Assembly (NCBI RefSeq): GCF_000169175.1
Contig: NZ_AAWS01000001.1
Location: forward strand, 124,001-188,000
Length of the DNA: 64,000 bases
Origin: Microscilla marina ATCC 23134
GTDB lineage: Bacteria > Bacteroidota > Bacteroidia > Cytophagales > Microscillaceae
Direction: 5' to 3'
Below are positions 6,842-45,769 of this stretch, in pieces. The notes under the pieces are model-generated. The model worked only from the letters and a program-made list of their open reading frames with translations, had not been told where the DNA came from and searched no databases. The translations under genes were made by a program, and so were the position numbers. The number at the start of each line of letters is the position of its first letter. The first letter of the stretch is position 1.

Positions 6842-7849
6842 ATGAAGATAGACATGCACACCCACATTATACCGGAAAAGCTCCCCCGTTTTGCCGAAAA
6901 ATTTGGTTATGGGGGCTTTATATACCTTGATCACCACAAAAAAGGAAAAGCCCGTATGTTAATGGACGGCAAGTTTTTCCGCGAAATAAAATCTAACTGC
7001 TGGGATCCGGTACTCCGCATCGAAGAATACAAAGCATATAATACCCAGGTGCAGGTAGTGTGCACCATACCGGTCATGTTTAGCTACTGGGCACAACCTC
7101 AAGATGGACTAGATGTTGCCAGGTTTTTGAATGATGACCTTGCCAAACTGGTGCAGGCACACCCTAAAAACTACATTGGCTTGGGTACCTTGCCCATGCA
7201 AGACATAGACCTTGCCGTAGAAGAACTACATCGTTGTAAAGAAGAACTGGGTTTTGCCGGGGTGCAAATAGGCTCTAACATTAACCAAAAAAACTTGAGT
7301 GAACCTGAGTTTCGGCCTTTCTTTCAAGCGTGTGAAGAGTTGGAAATGGCGGTTTTAATTCACCCCTGGGAGATGATGGGCATGGAAAACATGCGCCGTT
7401 ACTGGTTGCCCTGGCTGGTGGGTATGCCCGCCGAAACCACCCGCGCCATTACGTCTATGATCTTTAGTGGGGTTTTTGCCAGTTATCCTAAATTACGTGT
7501 AGCATTTGCCCATGCTGGAGGTTCCTTCTTAGCCACGCTGGGCAGAATAGAGCACGGGTTTAATTGTCGCCCCGACCTTGTGGCAATTGACAATCCAATA
7601 AACCCAAGAGAGTATTTGGGTAAGTTTTGGATTGATTGTATCACCCATGACACTACTATGCTCAAGTATGCTGTAGACATGATGGGGTCAAACCGGGTCA
7701 CTTTAGGTTCTGACTATCCTTTTCCGTTGGGTGACCTGGAAATAGGGGCTTTCATCGAAGAAACTGACCTGTCGGACAAAGACAAAGAAAACATTTACTG
7801 TAATGCTACCCTTGAGTGGCTCAACCTAAAAAAAGAAAAGTTTATGTAA
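6842..7849 (+). CDS. 2-amino-3-carboxymuconate-6-semialdehyde decarboxylase (ACMSD)
   Basis: 335 residues from ATG 6842, matching ACMSD (about 336). ACMSD is a zinc amidohydrolase-fold enzyme of tryptophan/kynurenine (or 2-nitrobenzoate) breakdown; it decarboxylates ACMS and so diverts flux from quinolinate/NAD. Seen: the metal motif MKIDMHTHIIP, FGYGGF, NCWDPVLRI, VMFSYWAQP, GLGTLPMQ, GVQIGSN, IHPWEMM, YWLPWLVGMPAETT, FAHAGG and GSDYPFPLGD with the catalytic Asp. All are near-identical to animal ACMSD. No other kynurenine-pathway gene is in the window. The GTG at 6818 is a weaker start. Confidence 0.95.
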   Translation: MKIDMHTHIIPEKLPRFAEKFGYGGFIYLDHHKKGKARMLMDGKFFREIKSNCWDPVLRIEEYKAYNTQVQVVCTIPVMFSYWAQPQDGLDVARFLNDDLAKLVQAHPKNYIGLGTLPMQDIDLAVEELHRCKEELGFAGVQIGSNINQKNLSEPEFRPFFQACEELEMAVLIHPWEMMGMENMRRYWLPWLVGMPAETTRAITSMIFSGVFASYPKLRVAFAHAGGSFLATLGRIEHGFNCRPDLVAIDNPINPREYLGKFWIDCITHDTTMLKYAVDMMGSNRVTLGSDYPFPLGDLEIGAFIEETDLSDKDKENIYCNATLEWLNLKKEKFM

Positions 7850-7931
7850 CAGAGGGGGGAAGAGTTGATTGATAGACCTGTTGGTTAAGTTATTCAGAAA
7901 GTTAAAAACATAGCTCAAAGTTTTATAAAAC

Positions 7932-7967
7932 AAAACCCTCACCAACCAAAAGTTGATGAGGGTTTTT
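7932..7967. terminator. Bidirectional intrinsic terminator
   Basis: Stem aaaccctcaccaac/gttgatgagggttt with one mismatch and a short A-rich loop, T-run on both outer flanks. It separates the convergent ACMSD gene and the T9SS cargo gene. Confidence 0.88.
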
Positions 7968-8008
7968 ATGAATTTGGCGATGAATCGACCAAATTTATTC
8001 AAGGTTAC

Positions 8009-8860
8009 TTATCTCTTGATCCAGCGAGCAGTACCTAGTTCTTCACCGTTTAGCTTAGTTCTGATGTAGTACATACCTTTAGGCAATTTGCTAGTGTTGA
8101 ACTGCTGCTTGGCACTTTTAAGCTTTTCAGACAATACCACTTTTCCATTTTTGTTTACCACCTCTACCTGATACTTAGCATCAGTAACTTTGATCTTGTT
8201 GGCAGACTTAAGCTCTACAGTCAAGTCAGCGTTAGATGGGTTTGGAGAGATACGTAAAGGATCGATAGAACCGTTGCAGTAAGGTGCACGGATAGTTCTG
8301 GTAGAAGTAATAGACTGACCATTACAAGTAACCGTTACTCTTACTGTAAAGGAAGCTCTTGAGTTAGCAAACGCAGTGGCAAACGCACTGTTGTTATTGA
8401 ATATGTTGGCAGCACCACTAATCACTGTCCACTGGTAAGTTACCGGACTAGAACCAGAACCGGTAAGAATGGCTCTCATGTCAATAATGGCTCTTCTTCC
8501 AATACACTCAGCCGATTGTTGGCTAATAGCAACTCTTGTAGGGCAACCTGGCACACTTACACTTACAGAACGAGCCGCAGTACAAGGAGCAGCACCACTC
8601 TTATAGCGAGCATAATATAAAGTTCCGTTGCTAGTACCTCTTACTGATACGGTACGACCAGTGTTGCTTCCTACGATGCTTAAACCACCAGTAGTAGACC
8701 AAAAGTAACGTGCACCAGACTGATTGGTAGCAGTATAAACACGTGTTTCGCCAGCTAACATAGAGCTTGACCCGCTAACGCTGCATTGTGCCGATACATT
8801 GTTGGCAAATGCTACCATGAATAACAACATCAGGGTAAACAGAGTAGTAAATTTTTTCAT
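8009..8860 (-). CDS. Secreted PKD-like protein with T9SS type A sorting domain
   Basis: 283 residues. A signal peptide (MKKFTTLFTLMLLFMVAFANNVSAQ) is followed by Ser/Thr/Gly-rich, Cys-containing beta-sandwich sequence of PKD-like type (YTATNQSGARYFWST, VTYQWTVISGAANI). The last ~80 residues (LRISPNPSNADLTVEL, KLPKGMYYIRT) are a T9SS C-terminal sorting domain. The protein should be exported by the T9SS and displayed or released. No catalytic motif is visible; adhesion or matrix function is a guess. Two direct repeats that may be regulator sites lie ~180 bp upstream. Confidence 0.88.
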   Translation of the reverse strand: MKKFTTLFTLMLLFMVAFANNVSAQCSVSGSSSMLAGETRVYTATNQSGARYFWSTTGGLSIVGSNTGRTVSVRGTSNGTLYYARYKSGAAPCTAARSVSVSVPGCPTRVAISQQSAECIGRRAIIDMRAILTGSGSSPVTYQWTVISGAANIFNNNSAFATAFANSRASFTVRVTVTCNGQSITSTRTIRAPYCNGSIDPLRISPNPSNADLTVELKSANKIKVTDAKYQVEVVNKNGKVVLSEKLKSAKQQFNTSKLPKGMYYIRTKLNGEELGTARWIKR

Positions 8861-9040
8861 GTAAATAAAAAGTTAATTAAGGTTTAATAAAAGTAGAACC
8901 TAAGTACTCATGCGACAAGCAAATTGTGGCTCAATTACAGGCGCATAATATAATCAGGTACCAGAAAATAATGTAAAAATACGAAGTGTGTTTTGACTTA
9001 TTTCCTGAAATAGTTGTAGGGCAAAAGTATGTGATATGGA

Positions 9041-9074
9041 TGGGTAAGATTGGGTAATTATGGGTAAGATTGGG
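9041..9074. repeat. 20-bp-period direct repeat upstream of T9SS cargo
   Basis: tgggtaagattggg occurs exactly at 9041-9054 and 9061-9074, two helical turns apart. The spacing suits tandem binding sites for a regulator of the gene starting at 8860, though the distance (about 180-210 bp) is large. Confidence 0.6.
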
Positions 9075-9135
9075 AATTGATGAAACAAAAAGAGGGTTAA
9101 TCCTGTAAAAAGGTGCGTATATTATTGTATAACTC

Positions 9136-9178
9136 AAACAACATCCATTTACAAAAGGCCTGCATGTGGATGTTGTTT
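9136..9178. repeat. Perfect 12-bp inverted repeat
   Basis: aaacaacatcca pairs with tggatgttgttt across a 19-base loop. There is no T-run, so it is not a typical terminator. Confidence 0.7.
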
Positions 9179-9448
9179 ATACTATACTGTGGGGTGCCAA
9201 CCCCACAACGCCTACACTATTAAGGGAGCAACCGTTAAATAAAGTAAGTGTTTTCAGTGAGAGGTTTTGGTTTGAGGCGAGATGGCAACATCCAGTGAAT
9301 GTTGAGCCAGCCTGTGCGATGGTTGCGAGCGCAGTAGCATCCCACAACCTCGCCCAACATTCCCCAAATGTTGTTGTGGTCAAGACGCATCAGGGCGAAA
9401 CATCCTTTGTCAAATACGTATACTATTTGTTGGTTACTTCCCTAATTA

Positions 9449-36263: not shown

Positions 36264-36415
36264 CAAGCCTCCTAATGGGAGTAAATGTGATTACCACGCT
36301 CAGCAATATAAAAAAGGTATGGGGAGATTTGGCGGGAAAGATTAAAAAGGGAAAAGGTCATTGCCTGCCAAAGCATTAGTTGACGCAACCAAACTTATTG
36401 AACCCACACCATTTT

Positions 36416-38386
36416 ATGAAATTCGCCCTGATTTATATTGTTGTAGTCATTGCCCTTATTGTTGGAGTAAACCAATGGCTGACTGTGCCTTTTTTTGCGC
36501 AACAAAAACCCAAAAAAATTATTAACCCTCAGTTTGAAAAGAAAATTGCCAGCCAAACTACCAACGATACTACCTCCTTAGAGTACCACTACCAGTTGCT
36601 TACTTATCATTTTGGCAAACCTGCCTACCAAGCTACTCCTACAGCCAATATTTACCGCAACGACAAAGCCATCGAGCTGTATTACAGGAGGTATGCCAAC
36701 TATAAAAATGATGACCTGCGCGACATTGGTCACTTGGGTTTGGGCATTATTTATTTTCACAAGAAGCAATGGCAGGAATCGGGAGAGGCATTTGACAAAA
36801 TAAAAAATAAGTCAAGAAGGTATATCAGTAACGCTCGTGGCGAGTACTACCTTGAGGTAGGTGCAGTGTGGGTTGCCGAAAAATTGTTTAAACAAGAAAT
36901 CAAACTGAGAGGAGCCGTAGACAAAGCCCATCAAAACCTGATTAAGGCGCTTTCCAGGCAACAAAAATGGAAAGAGTTGGATCAATTGCTTCATCTGCCC
37001 AAAAACAAAGCGTATTTGGCGCAAACCGACCCCGATATACTTGCCTATATGTACTTTAGTCAAGGCAAAGTGTTGAGTTATGTACAAGTACGTTTAAGGC
37101 TCAAAACCAATACTATAGCCATTATTGCCAGTTGGTTGATTACAATGGTTTGGCTTGTTTACCTGATGCGTATCAAGTGCTTTGCCAAGCCTGCCTACAC
37201 CTTGTGGCTGGGGTGTTTTGTGGGAGCGGTTTTGTCTACGTTTTTGGCTTTCCCCTTGTACGACTATTACCACCTCAAGTTAGGGTTTTATCCTACGGGT
37301 GGTGTGTTCAATGACTTTTTGTATTGCATAGCTGCCATTGGATTGATAGAAGAAAGTGTCAAGTTTTTGCCTGTCATCATTATTCTTTGGCTTTTCCCTA
37401 AGTCCATCAAGGAGCCCATCGACTATATTTTGCTGGCATCGGTGGCAGCTTTAGGGTTTGCTGCCACCGAAAACCTGCTTTATTTGGCAAAAGATACCGC
37501 AAATATTATTCACCATCGGGCATTTTTTTCGGTAGTGTCTCATTTGTTCGACAGCTCTGTTATTGCCTATGGGCTAGTGCTTGCCCGTTATCGGTTATCC
37601 AAACGTCCTATGTGGTTGCAGGGCTTGCTGTATTGGGGGCTTGCTGCCTGTGCCCATGGCTTTTTCGACTTTTGGTTGATCAATCCAATTGCCCGTTTTT
37701 TCTTCTTGTTTACTTTTGGTTTTATGGTGTTGTCTATGGCATTGTGGATGAGCTTTATGAACAATGCCTTGAATATATCTCCTGTTTTCGATGATCAAAA
37801 AGTATTTAATTCTGACCATCTTAAGCGATTTTTGGTAGTGTCACTCACTATTATATTGTTGTTTGACTACGTATCTACGGCTCTACTCAAAGGCGCAGAG
37901 GTAGCCAATACCGAGCTCAACGACACTTTAGTTTTTGCGTTGTTTTTTATGGGATTTTTGTCTACCAGTCTGGCAAACTTCGACTTGGTGCGTGGCCATT
38001 GGCAACCCTTGTATAAAACCAGTTTTTTTAAGAAGCCTAACTACAATTACCTCATAGGTAAAAAAATACAGTTGAGCAGTCGGCAAAGCCCTGAAGTGGA
38101 GGAGTTCTTTCCCCAACCATTGACTATAGGCACACGCTTGGTGTTTGATGATGAAACTACTTATTTCAGACTTGATCTGCCTGCTCCTGTAACTATCACC
38201 AGTCATACTGTAGAAACATTGGTGCTATTTGTAAAGTACAAAAATGAACGTCCTAAATACAATGAAAATATGGGTGTAAGGCTTTTTTTGATGGATTTAC
38301 TTGAATCTGAAAATCTTAATAATACAATTTTACGTAAAGATAAGCTCAACTTTTGGATAGCTGCTTCTGCCTGTTTGGTAGAATAA
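36416..38386 (+). CDS. PrsW-family intramembrane metalloprotease with TPR-like N-terminus
   Basis: 656 residues from ATG 36416. One N-terminal helix (FALIYIVVVIALIVGV) is followed by ~200 soluble residues with TPR-like helices (LGLGIIYFHKKQWQESGEAFDKI, YLEVGAVWVAEKLFKQEI). Then a multi-helix membrane core carries the PrsW/CPBP protease motifs GLIEESVKF (E312-E313), LGFAATENLLY, SHLFDSSVIAYG and AHGFFDFW. A soluble C-terminal ~130 residues follows. PrsW cleaves the anti-sigma factor RsiW in Bacillus; here the TPR part may recruit substrate. The next gene, also TPR, is 45 bases downstream. Confidence 0.85.
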   Translation: MKFALIYIVVVIALIVGVNQWLTVPFFAQQKPKKIINPQFEKKIASQTTNDTTSLEYHYQLLTYHFGKPAYQATPTANIYRNDKAIELYYRRYANYKNDDLRDIGHLGLGIIYFHKKQWQESGEAFDKIKNKSRRYISNARGEYYLEVGAVWVAEKLFKQEIKLRGAVDKAHQNLIKALSRQQKWKELDQLLHLPKNKAYLAQTDPDILAYMYFSQGKVLSYVQVRLRLKTNTIAIIASWLITMVWLVYLMRIKCFAKPAYTLWLGCFVGAVLSTFLAFPLYDYYHLKLGFYPTGGVFNDFLYCIAAIGLIEESVKFLPVIIILWLFPKSIKEPIDYILLASVAALGFAATENLLYLAKDTANIIHHRAFFSVVSHLFDSSVIAYGLVLARYRLSKRPMWLQGLLYWGLAACAHGFFDFWLINPIARFFFLFTFGFMVLSMALWMSFMNNALNISPVFDDQKVFNSDHLKRFLVVSLTIILLFDYVSTALLKGAEVANTELNDTLVFALFFMGFLSTSLANFDLVRGHWQPLYKTSFFKKPNYNYLIGKKIQLSSRQSPEVEEFFPQPLTIGTRLVFDDETTYFRLDLPAPVTITSHTVETLVLFVKYKNERPKYNENMGVRLFLMDLLESENLNNTILRKDKLNFWIAASACLVE

Positions 38387-38972: not shown

Positions 38973-40598
38973 TTAGGCTTCTTCTTCGTAAAAACCTTCA
39001 AACTGTTTGCGCAAAGTTAGTTTGCTAAACTTGCCCGTGGCAGTCATTGGAATCTCCTCTACAAAAACCACCTCGTCAGGAATCTGCCATTTGGCAAACT
39101 CGGTTCCCAGGTGTGTCTTAATACTTTCTTTGTCTGGGTTTTTACCTTCTTTGGGCACTACCACCAGCAAAGGCCTTTCACCCCATTTTTTATGCTTGAG
39201 CGCAATGGCGGCTGCCATGAGTACATCAGGATGCCCCATGGCTGTATTTTCCATTTCTACCGAGCTTATCCATTCGCCCCCCGACTTGATCAAGTCCTTC
39301 GAACGGTCTACAATTTCCATATAACCAAAACGGTCAATAGATGCCATGTCACCCGTGTCGAACCAACCGTCTTTGTTTACAGCAGGGGCATCGCTGCCAT
39401 AGTAAGTATGTACTACCCAATTGCCTCGCACCAACAAATGTCCTACTGCCTCACCATTGTGAGGTAGCTCGTTGCCTTCTTCGTCTACAATTTTTAGGTC
39501 AATGCCAAATACCGGGCGTCCTTGTTTCAAACGTATTTTGGCTTGTTCTTCTTGTGGCAAGTCTTTGAGTTGTGGAATGGCACGATTGATTGTACCTAGT
39601 GGGCTGGTTTCAGTCATTCCCCAGGCGTGCAAGAGTTGGGCGTCGTGTTTTTGTTCAAAGGCATCAAACATCCACGGAGGTGCTGCCGACCCGCCTACTA
39701 CTACATCACGCAACGAGTCAAGCTTTCGCCCTTTTTGTTTGGCAAAGTCGAGCAAGTTGGTCCATACTGTAGGCACACCCGCGGCAGTAGTTGCCTGGTA
39801 TTTATCTACCAGTTCAAAAATGGCTTCACCGTCCATAAGTTTGCCCGGAAAAATAAGGTTGGCACCCACCATAGGTCCCAGGTAAGAAATGCCCCAGGAG
39901 TTGGCGTGAAACAAGGGCACTACTACCAGGAGAGTATCTAGGCTACGGATGCCAAAGCCATCGGGGAGCCCGGCAGCATACGAGTGCAACAAGTTAGACT
40001 TGTGCGTATACATGACCCCCTTGGGGTTTCCGGTAGTGCCCGATGTATAACACAGCGATGAACCCGCGTTTTCGTCGAACACTGGCCATTCAAACTGGTC
40101 AGACTCACCTTTGATAAGTTCTTCATAGCAATAGAGTGCTACATCGTGTTTGGTGGTGGGCATGTGGGCGGCATCCGTCAATACGATGTAGCCTTCTACC
40201 TTGCCAAACTTGGGGTGCATTGCCTCAATCAGTGGCCAAAAGATAGGATCAATACAAATAAAACGGTCTTCGGCGTGGTTGATGATGTAATCCATTTGCC
40301 CCGCCGATAAACGTGGGTTGATGGTGTGACACACTGCCCCTTGCCCCGATATAGCATACCAGGCTTCGAGGTGGCGGTAAGTATTGAGGGCAATGGTGCC
40401 TATGCGATCGCCTTGTTGTACCCCTAGTTTTTTGAGGGCATTGGCAAGCTGGCGCACCCTTCGCAATATTTCGTGGTAAGTAATTTCGTGAATGCTATCG
40501 TCTTCTACCTTGCGGGTAATCACTTTTTGGTGGCTATAGTATTTTCCGGCGTGCTCTATACATTGCGCCAGGTTAAAAGGAGCATTTTGCATATTCAT
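38973..40598 (-). CDS. Acyl-CoA ligase / AMP-binding enzyme (DmdB-like)
   Basis: 541 residues from ATG 40598 (MNMQNAPFNLAQCIEHAGKY). Complete ANL enzyme: A3 motif CYTSGTTGNPKGVMYTHKS, LHAWGMTETSP, GWFDTGDMASID, RSKDLIKSGGEWISSVEME and the C-terminal catalytic Lys in MTATGKFSKLTLR. It is closest to medium/long-chain fatty-acyl-CoA ligases of the 3-methylmercaptopropionyl-CoA ligase type. It lies 96 bases downstream of the SGNH/MBOAT/P450/ACP genes on the same strand. It could supply acyl groups to that system or be an ordinary fatty-acid ligase; the gap leaves both open. Confidence 0.92.
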   Translation of the reverse strand: MNMQNAPFNLAQCIEHAGKYYSHQKVITRKVEDDSIHEITYHEILRRVRQLANALKKLGVQQGDRIGTIALNTYRHLEAWYAISGQGAVCHTINPRLSAGQMDYIINHAEDRFICIDPIFWPLIEAMHPKFGKVEGYIVLTDAAHMPTTKHDVALYCYEELIKGESDQFEWPVFDENAGSSLCYTSGTTGNPKGVMYTHKSNLLHSYAAGLPDGFGIRSLDTLLVVVPLFHANSWGISYLGPMVGANLIFPGKLMDGEAIFELVDKYQATTAAGVPTVWTNLLDFAKQKGRKLDSLRDVVVGGSAAPPWMFDAFEQKHDAQLLHAWGMTETSPLGTINRAIPQLKDLPQEEQAKIRLKQGRPVFGIDLKIVDEEGNELPHNGEAVGHLLVRGNWVVHTYYGSDAPAVNKDGWFDTGDMASIDRFGYMEIVDRSKDLIKSGGEWISSVEMENTAMGHPDVLMAAAIALKHKKWGERPLLVVVPKEGKNPDKESIKTHLGTEFAKWQIPDEVVFVEEIPMTATGKFSKLTLRKQFEGFYEEEA

Positions 40599-40694
40599 AT
40601 CTATACGTGTTTGAAGATTTTTCTTTATGTGATAGAAAGTTGCAATAATATTCTCGAAAGGGCAACTATAGCCAATCAAAATATGGTGTGTAGA

Positions 40695-41618
40695 TTAAAA
40701 ATGAGGTTTGATGAGAGGGCAAAGCAACTCCGTGTATTTTTGGGCTCCCCATTGATTGAGGTGTTGGGCATCTTTGAGAAAGCGGGCTTGTTGCATTTGT
40801 TGGATAAAATCAGCCGTGTAGACCACTTTTTGGTGTGGGGGTACATGATGGTATACTTCCAATGCTTGCTTTTTTCTTGTGGAGTCAACAAAGTTGATGG
40901 GAAGTAAAAAAATGATTCGTGCGTGGTGGTGTTGAGCTAATAGGGTTAAATAGTCGATCAATAACTTGTGCTCCTTTATATAAGGTGGGTAGGCTAGTGG
41001 GTTTAATACTTCGTTGTCATTAATAAACGATTGGATGCTTAAGCAGTTGTTTTGGGTATGGGCCTGAAAGCCAATGGGGGGGAGTGGGTTTTTGTAATTT
41101 AAAAGTACCTGGACAGTGTTTTTAACCGAGGCTGTTAAAAAAGCAGCTTGTTCCAGGTAGTGGGTTTGAATTTCGAGTTGCCTTTTTAAATCAAAACCTT
41201 TGACCAGCCGATGCAATGCCTTGGGGAGGTTTATTCCAAATTCTTGACAAATCAAGAATATGTGTTCAGGTAGTTTTTTGTGGATACTGGCTAATTCTAT
41301 AAAAATAGTTTTATGACCTTTGGTTTGGATAAGGTGTTGTGCTATAATACAAGAGTTGAGAAAAGTAGCTCCTCCCACGGCCAGGTTATATACCTTGTCC
41401 TGTCCAAGTTTTTTTTTGATAATATCAGGGTTTACCCCACACTGAACTCGACTGGAACCCAAAAAGAAGTAAGAAGTATCTTGAAGTGATTGACTGCTTA
41501 GTTTGGCTTCTTTCAACAGATGGTGGGGTTTTTTCCAAGTGTTCTGAAGCAGCAATATGACCACTACCCAAACACTTACAAATACGCCCAACTTTATCCA
41601 GGTATTGATTAGTTTCAT
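40695..41618 (-). CDS. SGNH/DltD-like partner of MBOAT
   Basis: 307 residues from ATG 41618 (MKLINTWIKLG), 8 bases past the MBOAT stop. One N-terminal membrane helix (LGVFVSVWVVVILLLQ) anchors a periplasmic domain with SGNH-type blocks: FFLGSSRVQCGVNPD (nucleophile Ser region), KVYNLAVGGATFLNS and the C-terminal DAQHLNQWGAQKY (Asp and His of block V). DltD and AlgX/AlgJ proteins have this layout and act with MBOAT proteins in acyl transfer outside the cytoplasm. The pairing with MBOAT supports the same role here. Confidence 0.8.
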   Translation of the reverse strand: MKLINTWIKLGVFVSVWVVVILLLQNTWKKPHHLLKEAKLSSQSLQDTSYFFLGSSRVQCGVNPDIIKKKLGQDKVYNLAVGGATFLNSCIIAQHLIQTKGHKTIFIELASIHKKLPEHIFLICQEFGINLPKALHRLVKGFDLKRQLEIQTHYLEQAAFLTASVKNTVQVLLNYKNPLPPIGFQAHTQNNCLSIQSFINDNEVLNPLAYPPYIKEHKLLIDYLTLLAQHHHARIIFLLPINFVDSTRKKQALEVYHHVPPHQKVVYTADFIQQMQQARFLKDAQHLNQWGAQKYTELLCPLIKPHF

Positions 41619-41626
41619 TTTGCAGG

Positions 41627-43006
41627 TTAAAATTGTATGTAATAATTGTCTATGATCAAACCTTTGCCTAAGGCTAATATGCACAAGGTGAGTTTAAAAT
41701 ATATAAACCATCTCTGCCAGAGGCTTTTACCTTGAAGGTAATCGTCAAACCTTTGTTTTTTTGCCTGTCCATTGTGATAATCCATCATACCAAATGCCAG
41801 CATAATTATCACCAGGTTTGCTTTTTGACCTGCCATGACTTGCCAGGGAAAGTAGGCATCAGTGTTTAAAGCTTGCTGAATAAGCGCTTGAATATCTGGC
41901 GAAATAAATACAAGGGCAAGTATGCTTGACAACATCAAATGATAAACAACTCCCATTACCTTTCTTAGTTTAGGATACGCCCATTTGCCAAAAGGTACTT
42001 TTTTTTCTAAAATAATCCATAGTCCGTTCATAGTACCCCACAAAAGTAGGCTATAGTTGAACCCATGCCATACTGCAATGAGCAAAAAGGTGAGCAATAG
42101 AATGGCGTTGGTATAGCGTCGTTTTTTATCATATTTGACCACTACAAAAAAGAAATAGTCTCTAAACCATTCATTCAGGGTTTTGTGCCAGCCTTGCCAA
42201 AACGTTTGCCGCGATGAGGCAAGGTAAATTCGGTGATTAAAGTTGTCTTTGAGCCTGACATTGAATAGTTGGGAGACTCCTTGAAAAAAATCTACAAACG
42301 CACTAAAGTTACAGTAGAGGTATAGAAAAAACACCAACCCTAATAGTAGGTAATAGCCTCCACTGATGGGGCTTGCCAAAAGGTTTTGCAAGAAGACATA
42401 TAACCTTTGGGCAATGACTATTTGTTTGAAAAGCCCCCAAAGCATTAATCTAAGCCCATGACTAATAGACTCATTGGTAATTTTAACTTGCTTGAATTGA
42501 GCAAAGAGGTATTTTGCCCGGTGCAAAGGGCCAGAGAATACCGTAGGGAAATAAAGCAAATATAACAGCAGCAAGAAAAAATTCTTCTCTGGAACTATAT
42601 ATTTGCGCTTGATGTCTATGAGGTAACTAATGCCATTGAAGCTAAAGTAAGACAAGCCAATCACTTGAAACCACCAGGACCAATGCCAGTTTTTTTGAGG
42701 CATAATCAAGTAGTGAGTGTATTGTATAAAGTGATGCCCTTTTTCAGTACTTTTAGCAATCAAGAGGGGCACCAACAGCAGCAATACCACCCACCAAAGT
42801 TTATGGATACGATCTTTGACCTTGAAACTTACACTGTAGATAATGAATGCCAACGCCAGCATCACCAATAACTTAGCCCCCACGATTGTATAATAAAATA
42901 CCAAGCTACTGATAAGCAAGGCTTGCCAGCGTCGATTGGCTGGAAAAGCAGCCACCAAACATACTGAGGTTAACACAAAGGCTGCAACAACCAATGGGTG
43001 AATCAT
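41627..43006 (-). CDS. MBOAT family membrane acyltransferase (DltB/AlgI-like)
   Basis: 459 residues from ATG 43006, whose ATGA overlaps the stop of the P450 gene, so translation is coupled. About ten membrane helices. Family motifs: [53 protein letters not shown], and the catalytic His region [22 protein letters not shown] (H314). DltB/AlgI-type MBOATs pass an acyl group across the membrane to an extracytoplasmic acceptor. Neighbouring genes supply a carrier protein and an SGNH partner, as in Dlt systems. Confidence 0.93.
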
Positions 43007-44208
43007 AGAGTTTTGTTTTTTAGCAAAATAGATTGGGCGTTGCGCATAAATATTTGTTTTGCCCATTGCACCCTGTTTTCCTCATGATCATCAAAAGTAT
43101 AGTTTTTTAGTAAGTGCATCATGGGCTGCAGGCAATGCCTCACTTCCAAACGGGCAACATTAGCCCCCAGGCAGAAGTGCATGCCTCCACCAAAAGATAA
43201 ATGTGGGTTTGGCTGACGGTCGGGTATAATTTCATCGGGGCGATCAAAAACTTCGGGATCACGGTTGGCGCTGGCAAGGCACAGGTATAACTTCGACTGG
43301 GCTGGCAAGTCTACTCCTGCATAGGTAAACTGATCTTGAGTTACCCTTACAGTATATTGCAAGGGAGCCGTAAATCTAAACAATTCTTCAATGAAAGCAT
43401 TTAATTGTTGAGAGTTGTTTTCTAATGCAAAATCGAACAAGTTTGAGTGGTTTAATATTTCATATAGTGCTATACTAAGATTGTCTTTGGAGGTTTCAAA
43501 GGCTGCCATGAGCGAAATTGCCATCAGCGAATACACCTTGTCGCTGGTATAGTCAAGTTGTTGCTCCTTGAGTGCTGTTTCAATTTTTTCGCGGTAGGGA
43601 GAGTGGTCAAATAGTTGTTTGCCCCATAATAAAGAGGTGTTGATTTTTTGGTAGAGTTGTTTGGGTACAAACAAATCCTGGCTACGGGCAAGTAGGTTAG
43701 AGTATTCCTTTATCTTGTCTGCGGTACCATATTTGTCAATGCCAAATATTTCTGAAGTGATCATAAAAATATAATCAGCGCAGTAGTCTACCAAGTTGAA
43801 CGTACCAAGCCTTTGGTAACGGGCATTTACTTTTTGTACTGCCTTCAGGATCACATTTTCCCACTCTAGCGAATTAAACACCTTGCCCAGTACGACCCTT
43901 ATTTTTTTGTGTAGTTTACCGTTCAAGTACATTGGCCACCATTGGGTGCTTTGGGCTAAATAAGGGCAAGCCTCTGTATTTTTGAAAATATAATCTTCTT
44001 TTTCTTTCAGGTACTGGCTAAGGTCTGATACATCAAGTTGGGGGTGGCGGAGCAAGTGACTTACATCACGGTGTTTGAAAAATATCCATTCCTTATGCAC
44101 CCCTTGGTGTATGGGGTTATTTTCGCGGCAGGCTTTGAGGTGAGGATAAGGGTCTTGAAAATAACCTTTGCTGTAGGGGTTCCAGATTATTTTTGTTGAG
44201 CTCTCCAT
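43003..44208 (-). CDS. Cytochrome P450
   Basis: 401 residues, bacterial soluble class (CYP107/BioI size). Motifs: ExxR in EELFR, the PERF-like region [10 protein letters not shown], heme loop [19 protein letters not shown] with ligand C346, and the I-helix AAFETSKDN in place of the usual AGxET/DT. Its ATG (44208) lies 22 bases inside the ACP gene, and its stop overlaps the MBOAT start, so it is the middle of a coupled operon. P450s paired with carrier proteins often hydroxylate the carrier-bound acyl or amino acid; a carrier-bound substrate is therefore likely. No ferredoxin gene is nearby. Confidence 0.95.
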
Positions 44209-44417
44209 GTTGCAAACTTATTGATAGTATTGTATTCTACAAACGCGGTAGGGTCAATGTCTTCATTGGTAACGCTTTCCAGGTCGGCTGCTATAGATAC
44301 AATAGACAGCGAGTCCATGTCAAAGTTATTGAAATCTTCGTCACAAGAAATTTCATCAGTATTTAATCCCGTTTCTTCGGCTATTTTTTCTAAAAGCCAT
44401 TTTTTTATATCGATCAT
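44187..44417 (-). CDS. Acyl carrier protein-like
   Basis: 76 residues from ATG 44417 ([17 protein letters not shown]). Four-helix ACP pattern with the phosphopantetheine site [16 protein letters not shown] (Ser36 of DSL), acidic as expected. It is not the housekeeping fatty-acid ACP by context: no fab genes are near, and it opens an operon with P450, MBOAT and SGNH genes, overlapping the P450 gene by 22 bases. Probable role is to hold the acyl group for oxidation and transfer. Confidence 0.9.
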
Positions 44418-44854
44418 TATTTTTGTACTTATGTCAGGTGAGTAATTCTGACAAACATACAACAGGATTAGAAAAAAATAAAATGATTTTGGGTTTACTT
44501 AACTTAAGCCAAATGTTTCTGCTAATTGCTGTGTAATGGGCTAGAGGCTTGGGTGCTCACAACGGCTGTTGACTAAGGATTGAGCATTAAAAAAACATAC
44601 GCGTGAGCCATCTGCGACAGGCTAAAGGCTTTGTTAAGGAACCGAACGTAGTGAGCTCAGCGGAGCTACGCCAGTACTGGACTAAAGACTGTGGACTATT
44701 TACTACGCCAGTTGGTAGCCATTGTTTTCCAGTACCTCCATCAAGTGATGCACTATTTCGGGGTGGTTTTTACCCAATACATACTCTAGTATTCGGCAAA
44801 TTTGTTGGGTATTGTGGGAGCAGTTTAAAGCAAGCTAGCCCTCCCTCCGGAGTT
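44418..44854. other. Intergenic region with a coding remnant
   Basis: No intact gene. On the minus strand 44703-44820 reads LNCSHNTQQICRILEYVLG then KNHPEIVHHLMEVLENNGYQ with a stop at 44703, clearly protein-like but without a start. It may be the tail of a lost gene after the ADP-ribosylglycohydrolase gene. The stretch gtgagctcagcggagctacg (44651 on) resembles part of repeats A and D. Confidence 0.45.
44452..44459 (-). promoter_or_regulatory. Putative -7 box of the ACP-P450-MBOAT-SGNH operon
   Basis: On the minus strand tatgtttg fits TAnnTTTG, 34 bases before the ACP start. No -33 element is clear. Confidence 0.45.
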
Positions 44855-45769
44855 TCATTTAACCAACCACCCCTCCAATATAGGTTCAGCCGCCTCTATC
44901 CAGCGAGCAGGCAAGCCTGATGTGCCCACCCGCAATGCCACTATGCCACCTACTATAGCGCAGGTAGTATCACGGTCGCCCAATGCCGATACTGTCAGCC
45001 AGAGTGCATCCTCGAAATTGTCTACATGATGAGCCGCACACCATAGCGCCAAAGGTACCGTGTCTTGAGCCAGCATTTGATGTCCATTGCCTAAGGCATG
45101 CACTACAGTATCTATCCTATAACTTGCCGGAAGACTCAACGCTTTATTGATTCGGTCTTTGGTTTGGCTGTCAGGGGTATGATGACTCACTTTAGCCAAA
45201 AAATCGTTGCCCGCAAGCACCGTGTGCCCCGCCAGATGAGCAGCTACGGCTACCGCAATGGCTCCTGCTTGAGCTTCGGGGTGGCTATGGGTGATTTGTG
45301 CCGATAACTTGGCTTGGTCAATTATTTGAGCCAAATCCTGCGTATAAAATGCCCCAATAGGAGCCACCCGCATAGCGGCCCCGTTGCCCATAGAGCCCAT
45401 GCCACTGAATACTTCTTTAGAAGCGTTTACCCAAGGTTTGCCTTCGCCTATTTCGCGCAGTATTTTGTGGGCAGTGCCACCGTAGCCTCTCGATATGTTT
45501 TTTTGGTAATTGATTGCCCATATTTGAGCAAGTTCGTTTTGATGAACGACTTGATTTTTAAATAAGCTTTGAGTAAGCCCAACCGTCATAATGGTATCAT
45601 CAGTAAAATACCAAGGGGCAGGTGGTAAGGTGTAGGTGTGTAGCCATTGCTCAATGTGAGGGCGGGTGTCAAAAAAACGTTGTCCAAAAGCATCACCCAA
45701 CCAAGTGCCTTGCAGTGCCAGTTTTGCCAGCTTGTGCTGGGGTTGGTTATAAGCTTTCAATATATCCAT
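44855..45769 (-). CDS. ADP-ribosylglycohydrolase family protein
   Basis: 304 residues, DraG/ARH family (PF03747). These binuclear Mg/Mn enzymes remove ADP-ribose from proteins or act on related N-ribosides. Metal motifs: GTWLGDAFG, WYFTDDTIMTVG near the N-terminus and SALGDRDTTCAIVGGIVALRVG near the end, plus SMGNGAAMRVAPIG. It is divergent from the GIN lipoprotein gene. No ADP-ribosyltransferase gene is adjacent, so its substrate is not known. Confidence 0.93.
   Translation of the reverse strand: MDILKAYNQPQHKLAKLALQGTWLGDAFGQRFFDTRPHIEQWLHTYTLPPAPWYFTDDTIMTVGLTQSLFKNQVVHQNELAQIWAINYQKNISRGYGGTAHKILREIGEGKPWVNASKEVFSGMGSMGNGAAMRVAPIGAFYTQDLAQIIDQAKLSAQITHSHPEAQAGAIAVAVAAHLAGHTVLAGNDFLAKVSHHTPDSQTKDRINKALSLPASYRIDTVVHALGNGHQMLAQDTVPLALWCAAHHVDNFEDALWLTVSALGDRDTTCAIVGGIVALRVGTSGLPARWIEAAEPILEGWLVK

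Follow-up and report, generated by a model that had tools for sequence, protein, structure and literature searches.

We analyzed a stretch of 64,000 nucleotides from Microscilla marina ATCC 23134 (contig NZ_AAWS01000001.1, positions 124,001 to 188,000; hereafter, the window) that encodes an acyl carrier protein (ACP), a cytochrome P450, an acyltransferase of the MBOAT family, and an SGNH-type protein. These four genes form a unit that is conserved in other genomes. The catalytic residues of the four proteins are intact, the MBOAT ends in a variant motif, and in one clade (clade B) the unit is tied to a fatty-acid–AMP ligase (FAAL). We propose that this cassette is a carrier-dependent MBOAT-SGNH system for acylating the cell envelope, with an oxidation step that takes place on the carrier (probability roughly 0.6). 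Judging from the sequences, it most likely moves an oxidized fatty acyl group from the carrier protein to an envelope glycan. The genes and residues that we will discuss are (in window coordinates):

44187-44417, minus strand: ACP gene (76 aa; Pfam PP-binding, 4.9e-15)
44310-44312, minus strand: phosphopantetheine-site Ser36 of the ACP, in a DSL motif; invariant in 11 of 11 aligned ACPs
43003-44208, minus strand: cytochrome P450 gene (401 aa; Pfam P450, 3.7e-16)
43171-43173, minus strand: heme Cys346 of the P450; invariant in 12 of 12 aligned
within 43003-44208, minus strand: E238-T239 (I-helix) and E275/R278 (ExxR) of the P450; invariant in 12 of 12 aligned
41627-43006, minus strand: MBOAT acyltransferase gene (459 aa; Pfam MBOAT, 4.8e-7; 29.8 bits, cut-off 27)
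41630-41647, minus strand: C-terminal hexapeptide NYYIQF of the MBOAT, residues 454-459; proposed acyl shuttle, Tyr456
40695-41618, minus strand: SGNH-type protein gene (307 aa; N-terminal helix at residues 2-27; named from fold comparison)
41451-41453, minus strand: Ser56 (GSSR) of the SGNH protein; invariant in 11 of 11 aligned
38973-40598, minus strand: ligase ORF (541 aa; Pfam AMP-binding, 7.9e-76)

The first-pass annotation of this DNA had placed these five open reading frames (ORFs) on one strand, and we reproduced its coordinates, overlaps, and gaps. The ACP gene runs 22 bases into the P450 gene, the P450 and MBOAT genes share an ATGA overlap, the SGNH gene follows the MBOAT gene after 8 bases, and another 96 bases separate it from the ligase. 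Matches to Pfam and NCBIfam are in line with the names given to the ACP, the P450, the MBOAT, and the ligase. The exception is the SGNH protein, which has no Pfam match at 0.01.

The order ACP-P450-MBOAT-SGNH recurs on one strand in longer stretches of other genomes. A P450 profile gave 52 matches in 390 genomes of the order, of which 30 were given a locus (the other 22, with E of 1.5e-19 or weaker, lie outside the locus set). At 21 of these 30 loci, an ACP and an MBOAT are beside the P450; at the other nine there is no MBOAT. The gene set is thus present in at least 21 of the 390 genomes (a lower bound, as at most four candidates were scored per genome in this survey and in a survey of the phylum), and it is also present in nine further genomes of genus g60. 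The ACP gene was found in all 30 of the cassettes examined, and the SGNH gene in all 22 whose stretch covered it fully. In the phylum survey, 18 of 395 genomes had a match to the P450 profile at 1e-30 (21 matches in total), and among the candidates scored only the window's own genome had an ACP and an MBOAT beside the P450. A contig scan with a single P450 query found only the sister species, which keeps the same four genes (79% identity for the P450, 90% for the MBOAT, 86% for the SGNH protein, and 88% for the ACP). A tblastn search of 1154 plasmid records listed 20 matches, all below 27% identity.

Could the four genes be neighbors by chance? Around 29 other P450 loci, we found no MBOAT or SGNH gene within about 1.5 kb, and an ACP was beside the P450 at two of them. 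Around 22 other MBOAT loci, there was no ACP, P450, or FAAL within about 1.5 kb, and one had an SGNH match. Because the set recurs and neither control shows it, we reject a chance neighborhood. The first-pass annotation had tied the P450 to a carrier, MBOAT, and SGNH set and had suggested a search for this gene order elsewhere. The order was found, conserved as a unit, so the objection that the set might not be conserved no longer applies.

Phylogenetic trees also set the cassette apart. In the MBOAT tree, 23 cassette rows fall on one side of a branch and 22 others fall on the other side (support 100/100; seven near-identical cassette MBOATs were left out, and the MBOAT of L041, which is cut by the end of the locus, was replaced by L066 from the same genome). 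In the P450 tree, 20 of 21 cassette rows form one clade (96/96; oth_L091 and four cassette P450s were left out), and an earlier quick tree had given these 20 rows an SH-aLRT of 91. Both trees agree on two groups: clade A (the window, L029, five g62 genomes, one g117 genome, and two g60 genomes) and clade B (the remaining g60 rows), with G384 apart in both. All 10 clade A cassettes have a 22-28-base overlap between the ACP gene and the P450 gene (with longest-ORF starts). The two g60 genomes in clade A, G773 and G791, have clade A forms of the P450 and MBOAT by tree and of the ACP and SGNH protein by best blast match; the other g60 cassettes score as clade B. As these two genomes hold clade A forms in an otherwise clade B genus, the unit travels together, and the cassette seems to move as one piece. 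Separately, L118 (6240-7666) contains a P450-ACP pair without an MBOAT. Type IX secretion-related genes lie on one side of this pair and a PAPS reductase-domain gene on the other, and the pair is possibly a relative of the cassette module with another use.

The ACP and the P450 both keep their key residues. Besides the invariant serine of the ACP, the window's genome encodes two ACPS-domain proteins. The four solved chains that the ACP profile matched are carriers other than DltC, and they include a carrier of a mycolic-acid polyketide synthase (PKS). Carriers of this type are loaded by FAALs. The P450s have the heme cysteine, the ExxR motif, and the acid-alcohol pair of the I-helix in 12 of 12 aligned sequences. 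Among solved chains, the P450 profile scores highest against PksS (241.8 bits), then P450BioI (236.9 bits), with many other P450s close behind. P450BioI acts on ACP-linked fatty acids, as set out in part of PMC10741444, so the likeness to these two enzymes is a hint that the substrate of the cassette P450 may be ACP-bound. The overlap of the ACP and P450 genes and their conserved linkage would also favor action on the carrier.

The MBOAT has the catalytic histidine of its family (His314, invariant in 11 of 11 aligned) and exceeds the Pfam MBOAT cut-off. Its score against the NCBIfam model for DltB (TIGR04091) is 93.6 bits, under the cut-off of 375, and its predicted fold (mean pLDDT 70.5) is nearest to DltB, then to PORCN and HHAT. 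Its partner is harder to place. The Pfam DltD model reached only 0.011, in one of 11 SGNH proteins, and a profile search against solved chains gave no meaningful match. The AlphaFold model (mean pLDDT 73) has DltD (6pfx) as its best Foldseek match, which is weak (E 4.8e-4, TM 0.40/0.34). The SGNH protein has the expected serine and histidine: Ser56 and His286 are invariant in 11 of 11 sequences, and Asp283 is present in eight. Asparagine stands in place of this aspartate, three residues ahead of the catalytic histidine, at L058 (4379-5320), L059 (4155-5096), and L060 (8747-9688).

The C-terminus of the MBOAT is distinctive. According to passages of PMC12148441, a tyrosine in the C-terminal FXYXXF of PatA becomes acetylated, and this motif is argued to be common to MBOAT-SGNH systems, with Dlt carrying it on DltX. 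All 30 of the cassette MBOATs that we read end in xYYxxF, and Y455, Y456, and F459 are invariant in 11 of 11 aligned. (The ends are NYYIQF in the window, NYYL[AR]F, AYYMQF, AYYVRF, or FYYIQF; G384 has FYYFQF.) Relative to FXYXXF, the window's NYYIQF keeps the tyrosine and the final phenylalanine and has the first phenylalanine swapped, while the FYYIQF of most clade B copies fits the motif. By its sequence, xYYxxF looks like a modified form of the FXYXXF end that acts as an acyl shuttle. Among 28 MBOATs from outside the cassettes, 27 end in F[IV]YFxF and the remaining one is without the motif. The cassette end may differ from F[IV]YFxF to suit a larger acyl cargo.

Evidence about the cargo comes from the ligase that accompanies clade B. 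Its best NCBIfam scores are for PRK05691 (the N-terminal part of this NRPS/PKS model; 398 bits) and for fatty-acid–AMP ligase (360.6 bits), with amino acid adenylation (177.7 bits) and DltA (127.8 bits) lower down; we call it a FAAL by score, as none of the listed NCBIfam matches exceeds its own cut-off. Its best solved matches are chains that bear the names polyketide synthase, Saframycin Mx1 synthetase B, and FadD23, followed by further FadD/FAAL chains. A FAAL is present in all 13 clade B genomes of the first survey and in all 22 of the genus survey, or 23 of 23 distinct genomes (G770, G772, and G780 being assigned to clade B by profile score alone), and in none of the 10 clade A genomes at E 1e-20. 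Among 48 g60 genomes, 22 have both a FAAL and a clade B P450, two have only the FAAL, none has only the P450, and 24 have neither (two of these carry a clade A cassette). The association is significant whether all pairs are considered (P = 2e-11, Fisher exact test) or only the eight unlinked ones (P = 2.5e-6), although both tests ignore kinship. The FAAL adjoins the cassette in 14 g60 genomes (for G770, G772, and G780, as judged from coordinates and profile score alone) and in G384. In eight genomes it lies apart from the cassette, whose surroundings differ, and it is then followed by a second ACP and, in seven, also by a sodium-solute symporter gene. As the FAAL co-occurs with the clade B cassette even when unlinked, a single pathway is favored, and the FAAL is likely the loader of the clade B ACP. 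Because this loader is a FAAL, a fatty acyl cargo is more plausible than an aminoacyl one, and the ACP probably carries a fatty acyl group rather than an amino acid. Thus, where the first-pass annotation had left the carrier-bound cargo as acyl or aminoacyl, the former holds up and the latter has become less likely.

Two observations concern the FAAL genes themselves. At L116 (6204-9600) and L137-L151, all from g60, a FAAL-ACP pair usually has a sodium:solute symporter gene after it, with a PhoR-like kinase gene upstream, and the pair is kept where the P450-MBOAT-SGNH genes are elsewhere or missing (G777 and G790). At L068 (about 7561-9179, in G354), the FAAL gene is split over two reading frames, whereas related genes are not, which could reflect a sequencing error or decay.

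We propose the following pathway. A phosphopantetheinyl transferase would convert the ACP to holo-ACP, and an acyl chain would then be loaded, in clade B by the FAAL, as its linkage and co-occurrence suggest. The P450 would oxidize, and most likely hydroxylate, this chain before it leaves the ACP. At the cytoplasmic face, the MBOAT would accept the acyl group from the ACP, just as DltB accepts its own from DltC, and, if the motif works as it does in PatA, would pass it onto Tyr456 of its C-terminal hexapeptide. Finally, Ser56 of the SGNH protein would receive the acyl group and esterify a hydroxyl of an envelope glycan.

The genomic surroundings of two of the cassettes suggest that the acceptor is a surface polysaccharide. 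(Both are g62 cassettes, from the two of the five g62 genomes that were scanned.) In G095, the cassette is flanked by two Wzi-like genes, and genes for an epimerase, a glycosyltransferase, a heparinase II/III-type protein, and a UDP-GlcNAc 2-epimerase are farther out. In G244, a run of epimerase and glycosyltransferase genes leads to the cassette and includes Polysacc_synt_2, UDP-GlcNAc 2-epimerase, RmlD-type, and GDP-mannose dehydratase-type genes.

Several observations do not fit our proposal easily. There is no polysaccharide locus among the scanned neighbors of the window, the g60 cassettes, or L063, so for these the acceptor is a guess. The aspartate of the SGNH protein is replaced by asparagine in three of 11 sequences. 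In the eight genomes with an unlinked FAAL, that FAAL is paired with a second ACP of its own at a distance from the cassette, and G777 and G790 keep a FAAL-ACP pair without a cassette P450 or a cassette-type MBOAT, so the pair may serve another use as well. The P450 of G384 falls outside the cassette clade (although a single clade for all 21 rows was not rejected; p-AU 0.171). Two P450-ACP pairs have no adjoining MBOAT, and one of these (in G252) also has a FAAL-type match. Last, no FAAL was found in the window's genome at E 1e-20, which leaves the loading of the ACP in Microscilla unexplained. Candidate routes are an exchange of acyl groups with fatty acid synthesis, a ligase encoded elsewhere, and the neighboring ligase.

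The neighboring ligase had been taken by the first-pass annotation as the counterpart of DltA, which our data do not bear out. It is FadD/DmdB-like: its best NCBIfam match is PRK07008 (730 bits, under the cut-off of 822), and among the NCBIfam matches listed it exceeds the cut-off only for PRK06187, a long-chain-fatty-acid–CoA ligase. Its best solved chain is 6ihk, which we take to be DmdB. Among the cassettes examined, it adjoins only those of the two Microscilla genomes, so the set to be explained is four genes and not five. We reject it as a fifth conserved member because it has relatives in genomes where no cassette P450 was found at 1e-20 (at 70-73% in G005 and G006 and at 49% in G026, with neighbors that differ from those in the window) and because the 14 kb around each of six g62/g117 cassettes (L058-L063) contain no similar ORF. 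It is probably outside the cassette. It might still have been recruited in Microscilla as an acyl-ACP synthetase in place of the FAAL, and it does adjoin the cassette in both Microscilla genomes and has solved acyl-ACP synthetases among its relatives (309.8 bits). We consider this unlikely because 6ihk-type chains score far above those (573 bits) and because of the relatives at 70-73% in genomes without a cassette P450 and the absence of such an ORF from the six g62/g117 cassettes. Also, the two Microscilla copies of the ligase are 97% conserved, as compared to 79-90% for the cassette proteins, and the GC content of the ligase is higher (48.5%, versus 35.5-41.7% for the four cassette genes).

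The cargo and the product could also be of other kinds. In A-PCP-P450 trios, a P450 beta-hydroxylates a carrier-bound amino acid. By a route like those of Dlt and nonribosomal peptide synthetases (NRPSs), the cassette ACP could carry an amino acid, and the MBOAT-SGNH pair could add a hydroxy-aminoacyl group to the surface. The folds nearest to the MBOAT and the SGNH protein are those of DltB and DltD, and DltB, too, uses a carrier protein, as stated in part of PMC12148441. This route seems improbable, however, since the clade B loader scores as FAAL-like (360.6 bits) and not as an amino acid or DltA-type adenylating enzyme, and since the window's ligase has no like around L058-L063 and no FAAL-like ORF is found around L135 and L136. 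It is nearly as doubtful that the product of the cassette is an acylated small molecule or lipid for export instead of a decorated polymer. The lack of polysaccharide genes among the scanned neighbors of the window and the g60 copies would fit such a product, as would PksS, named as a polyketide enzyme, as the best solved match of the P450 profile. But there is no PKS or NRPS among the neighbors scanned, and polysaccharide genes are beside two of the g62 copies. So, we prefer the transfer of an oxidized fatty acyl group from the ACP to an envelope glycan.

If that is correct, how does the cassette relate to known systems? According to passages of PMC12148441, Dlt uses a carrier protein together with DltX, and other MBOAT-SGNH pathways use acyl-CoA with the motif fused to the C-terminus of the MBOAT. 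Like Dlt, the cassette has a carrier, an MBOAT, and an SGNH protein, with folds nearest to DltB and (weakly) DltD. Unlike Dlt, it has a P450; the unit is without a DltA-like ligase (the window's is FadD/DmdB-like and the clade B loader is FAAL-like); and its MBOAT scores under the NCBIfam cut-off for DltB. Also, there can be no DltX between the four genes because they overlap or lie 8 bases apart, and the shuttle-like motif is instead on the MBOAT's own C-terminus. In this, and in the SGNH partner, the cassette resembles PatA/PatB and AlgI-type systems. As described in those same passages, the PatAB/AlgI-type systems have an acyl-CoA donor and no carrier protein (PMC12148441), whereas the cassette encodes a carrier (30 of 30) and a P450 with its MBOAT-SGNH pair. 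Its hexapeptide also differs, with xYYxxF in place of the F[IV]YFxF of 27 of the 28 other MBOATs read here.

Two other systems share the first half of the proposed pathway. In starter units of the JamABC type, an ACP set aside for the purpose is charged by a FAAL, and the bound chain is then modified by an oxidative enzyme, as we propose here, but the product goes to a PKS or NRPS, while the product of the cassette would go to an export acyltransferase. P450BioI (CYP107H1), the second-best solved match of the cassette P450 profile, has an ACP-linked fatty acid as its substrate, and we know of no MBOAT or SGNH partners for it. It differs in that it serves the biotin pathway, where it cleaves C7-C8 (part of PMC10741444). 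We found no description of such a cassette in the open-licence literature, with subscription papers and preprints mostly outside the search.

The cassette seems to combine traits of Dlt with those of the acyl-CoA-dependent, fused-motif MBOAT-SGNH systems, and to add an oxygenase. It is about an even bet that it represents a third architecture for envelope acylation, in which a Dlt-like carrier is the donor, a PatA-like acyl-tyrosine shuttle is fused to the MBOAT, and a P450 edits the chain before export, so that hydroxy acyl esters would be formed on surface glycans and xYYxxF would be adapted to the larger cargo. If so, bacteria can diversify their surface acyl groups by oxidation ahead of export, and with the variant C-terminus of the MBOAT, the fit between shuttle motif and cargo could be tested directly. 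The cassette also supplies compact P450/carrier pairs for enzymology.

Scans of the locus for promoters and terminators were not informative: terminator-like sites are at the level expected by chance (8 versus 7.0), and promoter-like sites exceed it (24 versus 12.6), yet they lie on both strands and many are inside genes. Elsewhere in the window, 36380-38386 encodes a protein of 668 aa whose PrsW-protease domain is confined to residues 271-453 and whose N-terminal part is without a Pfam match, and a gene for a TPR protein follows it. A gene for an ADP-ribosylglycohydrolase (44855-45769) precedes the cassette on its strand. It lies outside the unit because in the sister species several extra genes separate it from the ACP gene.

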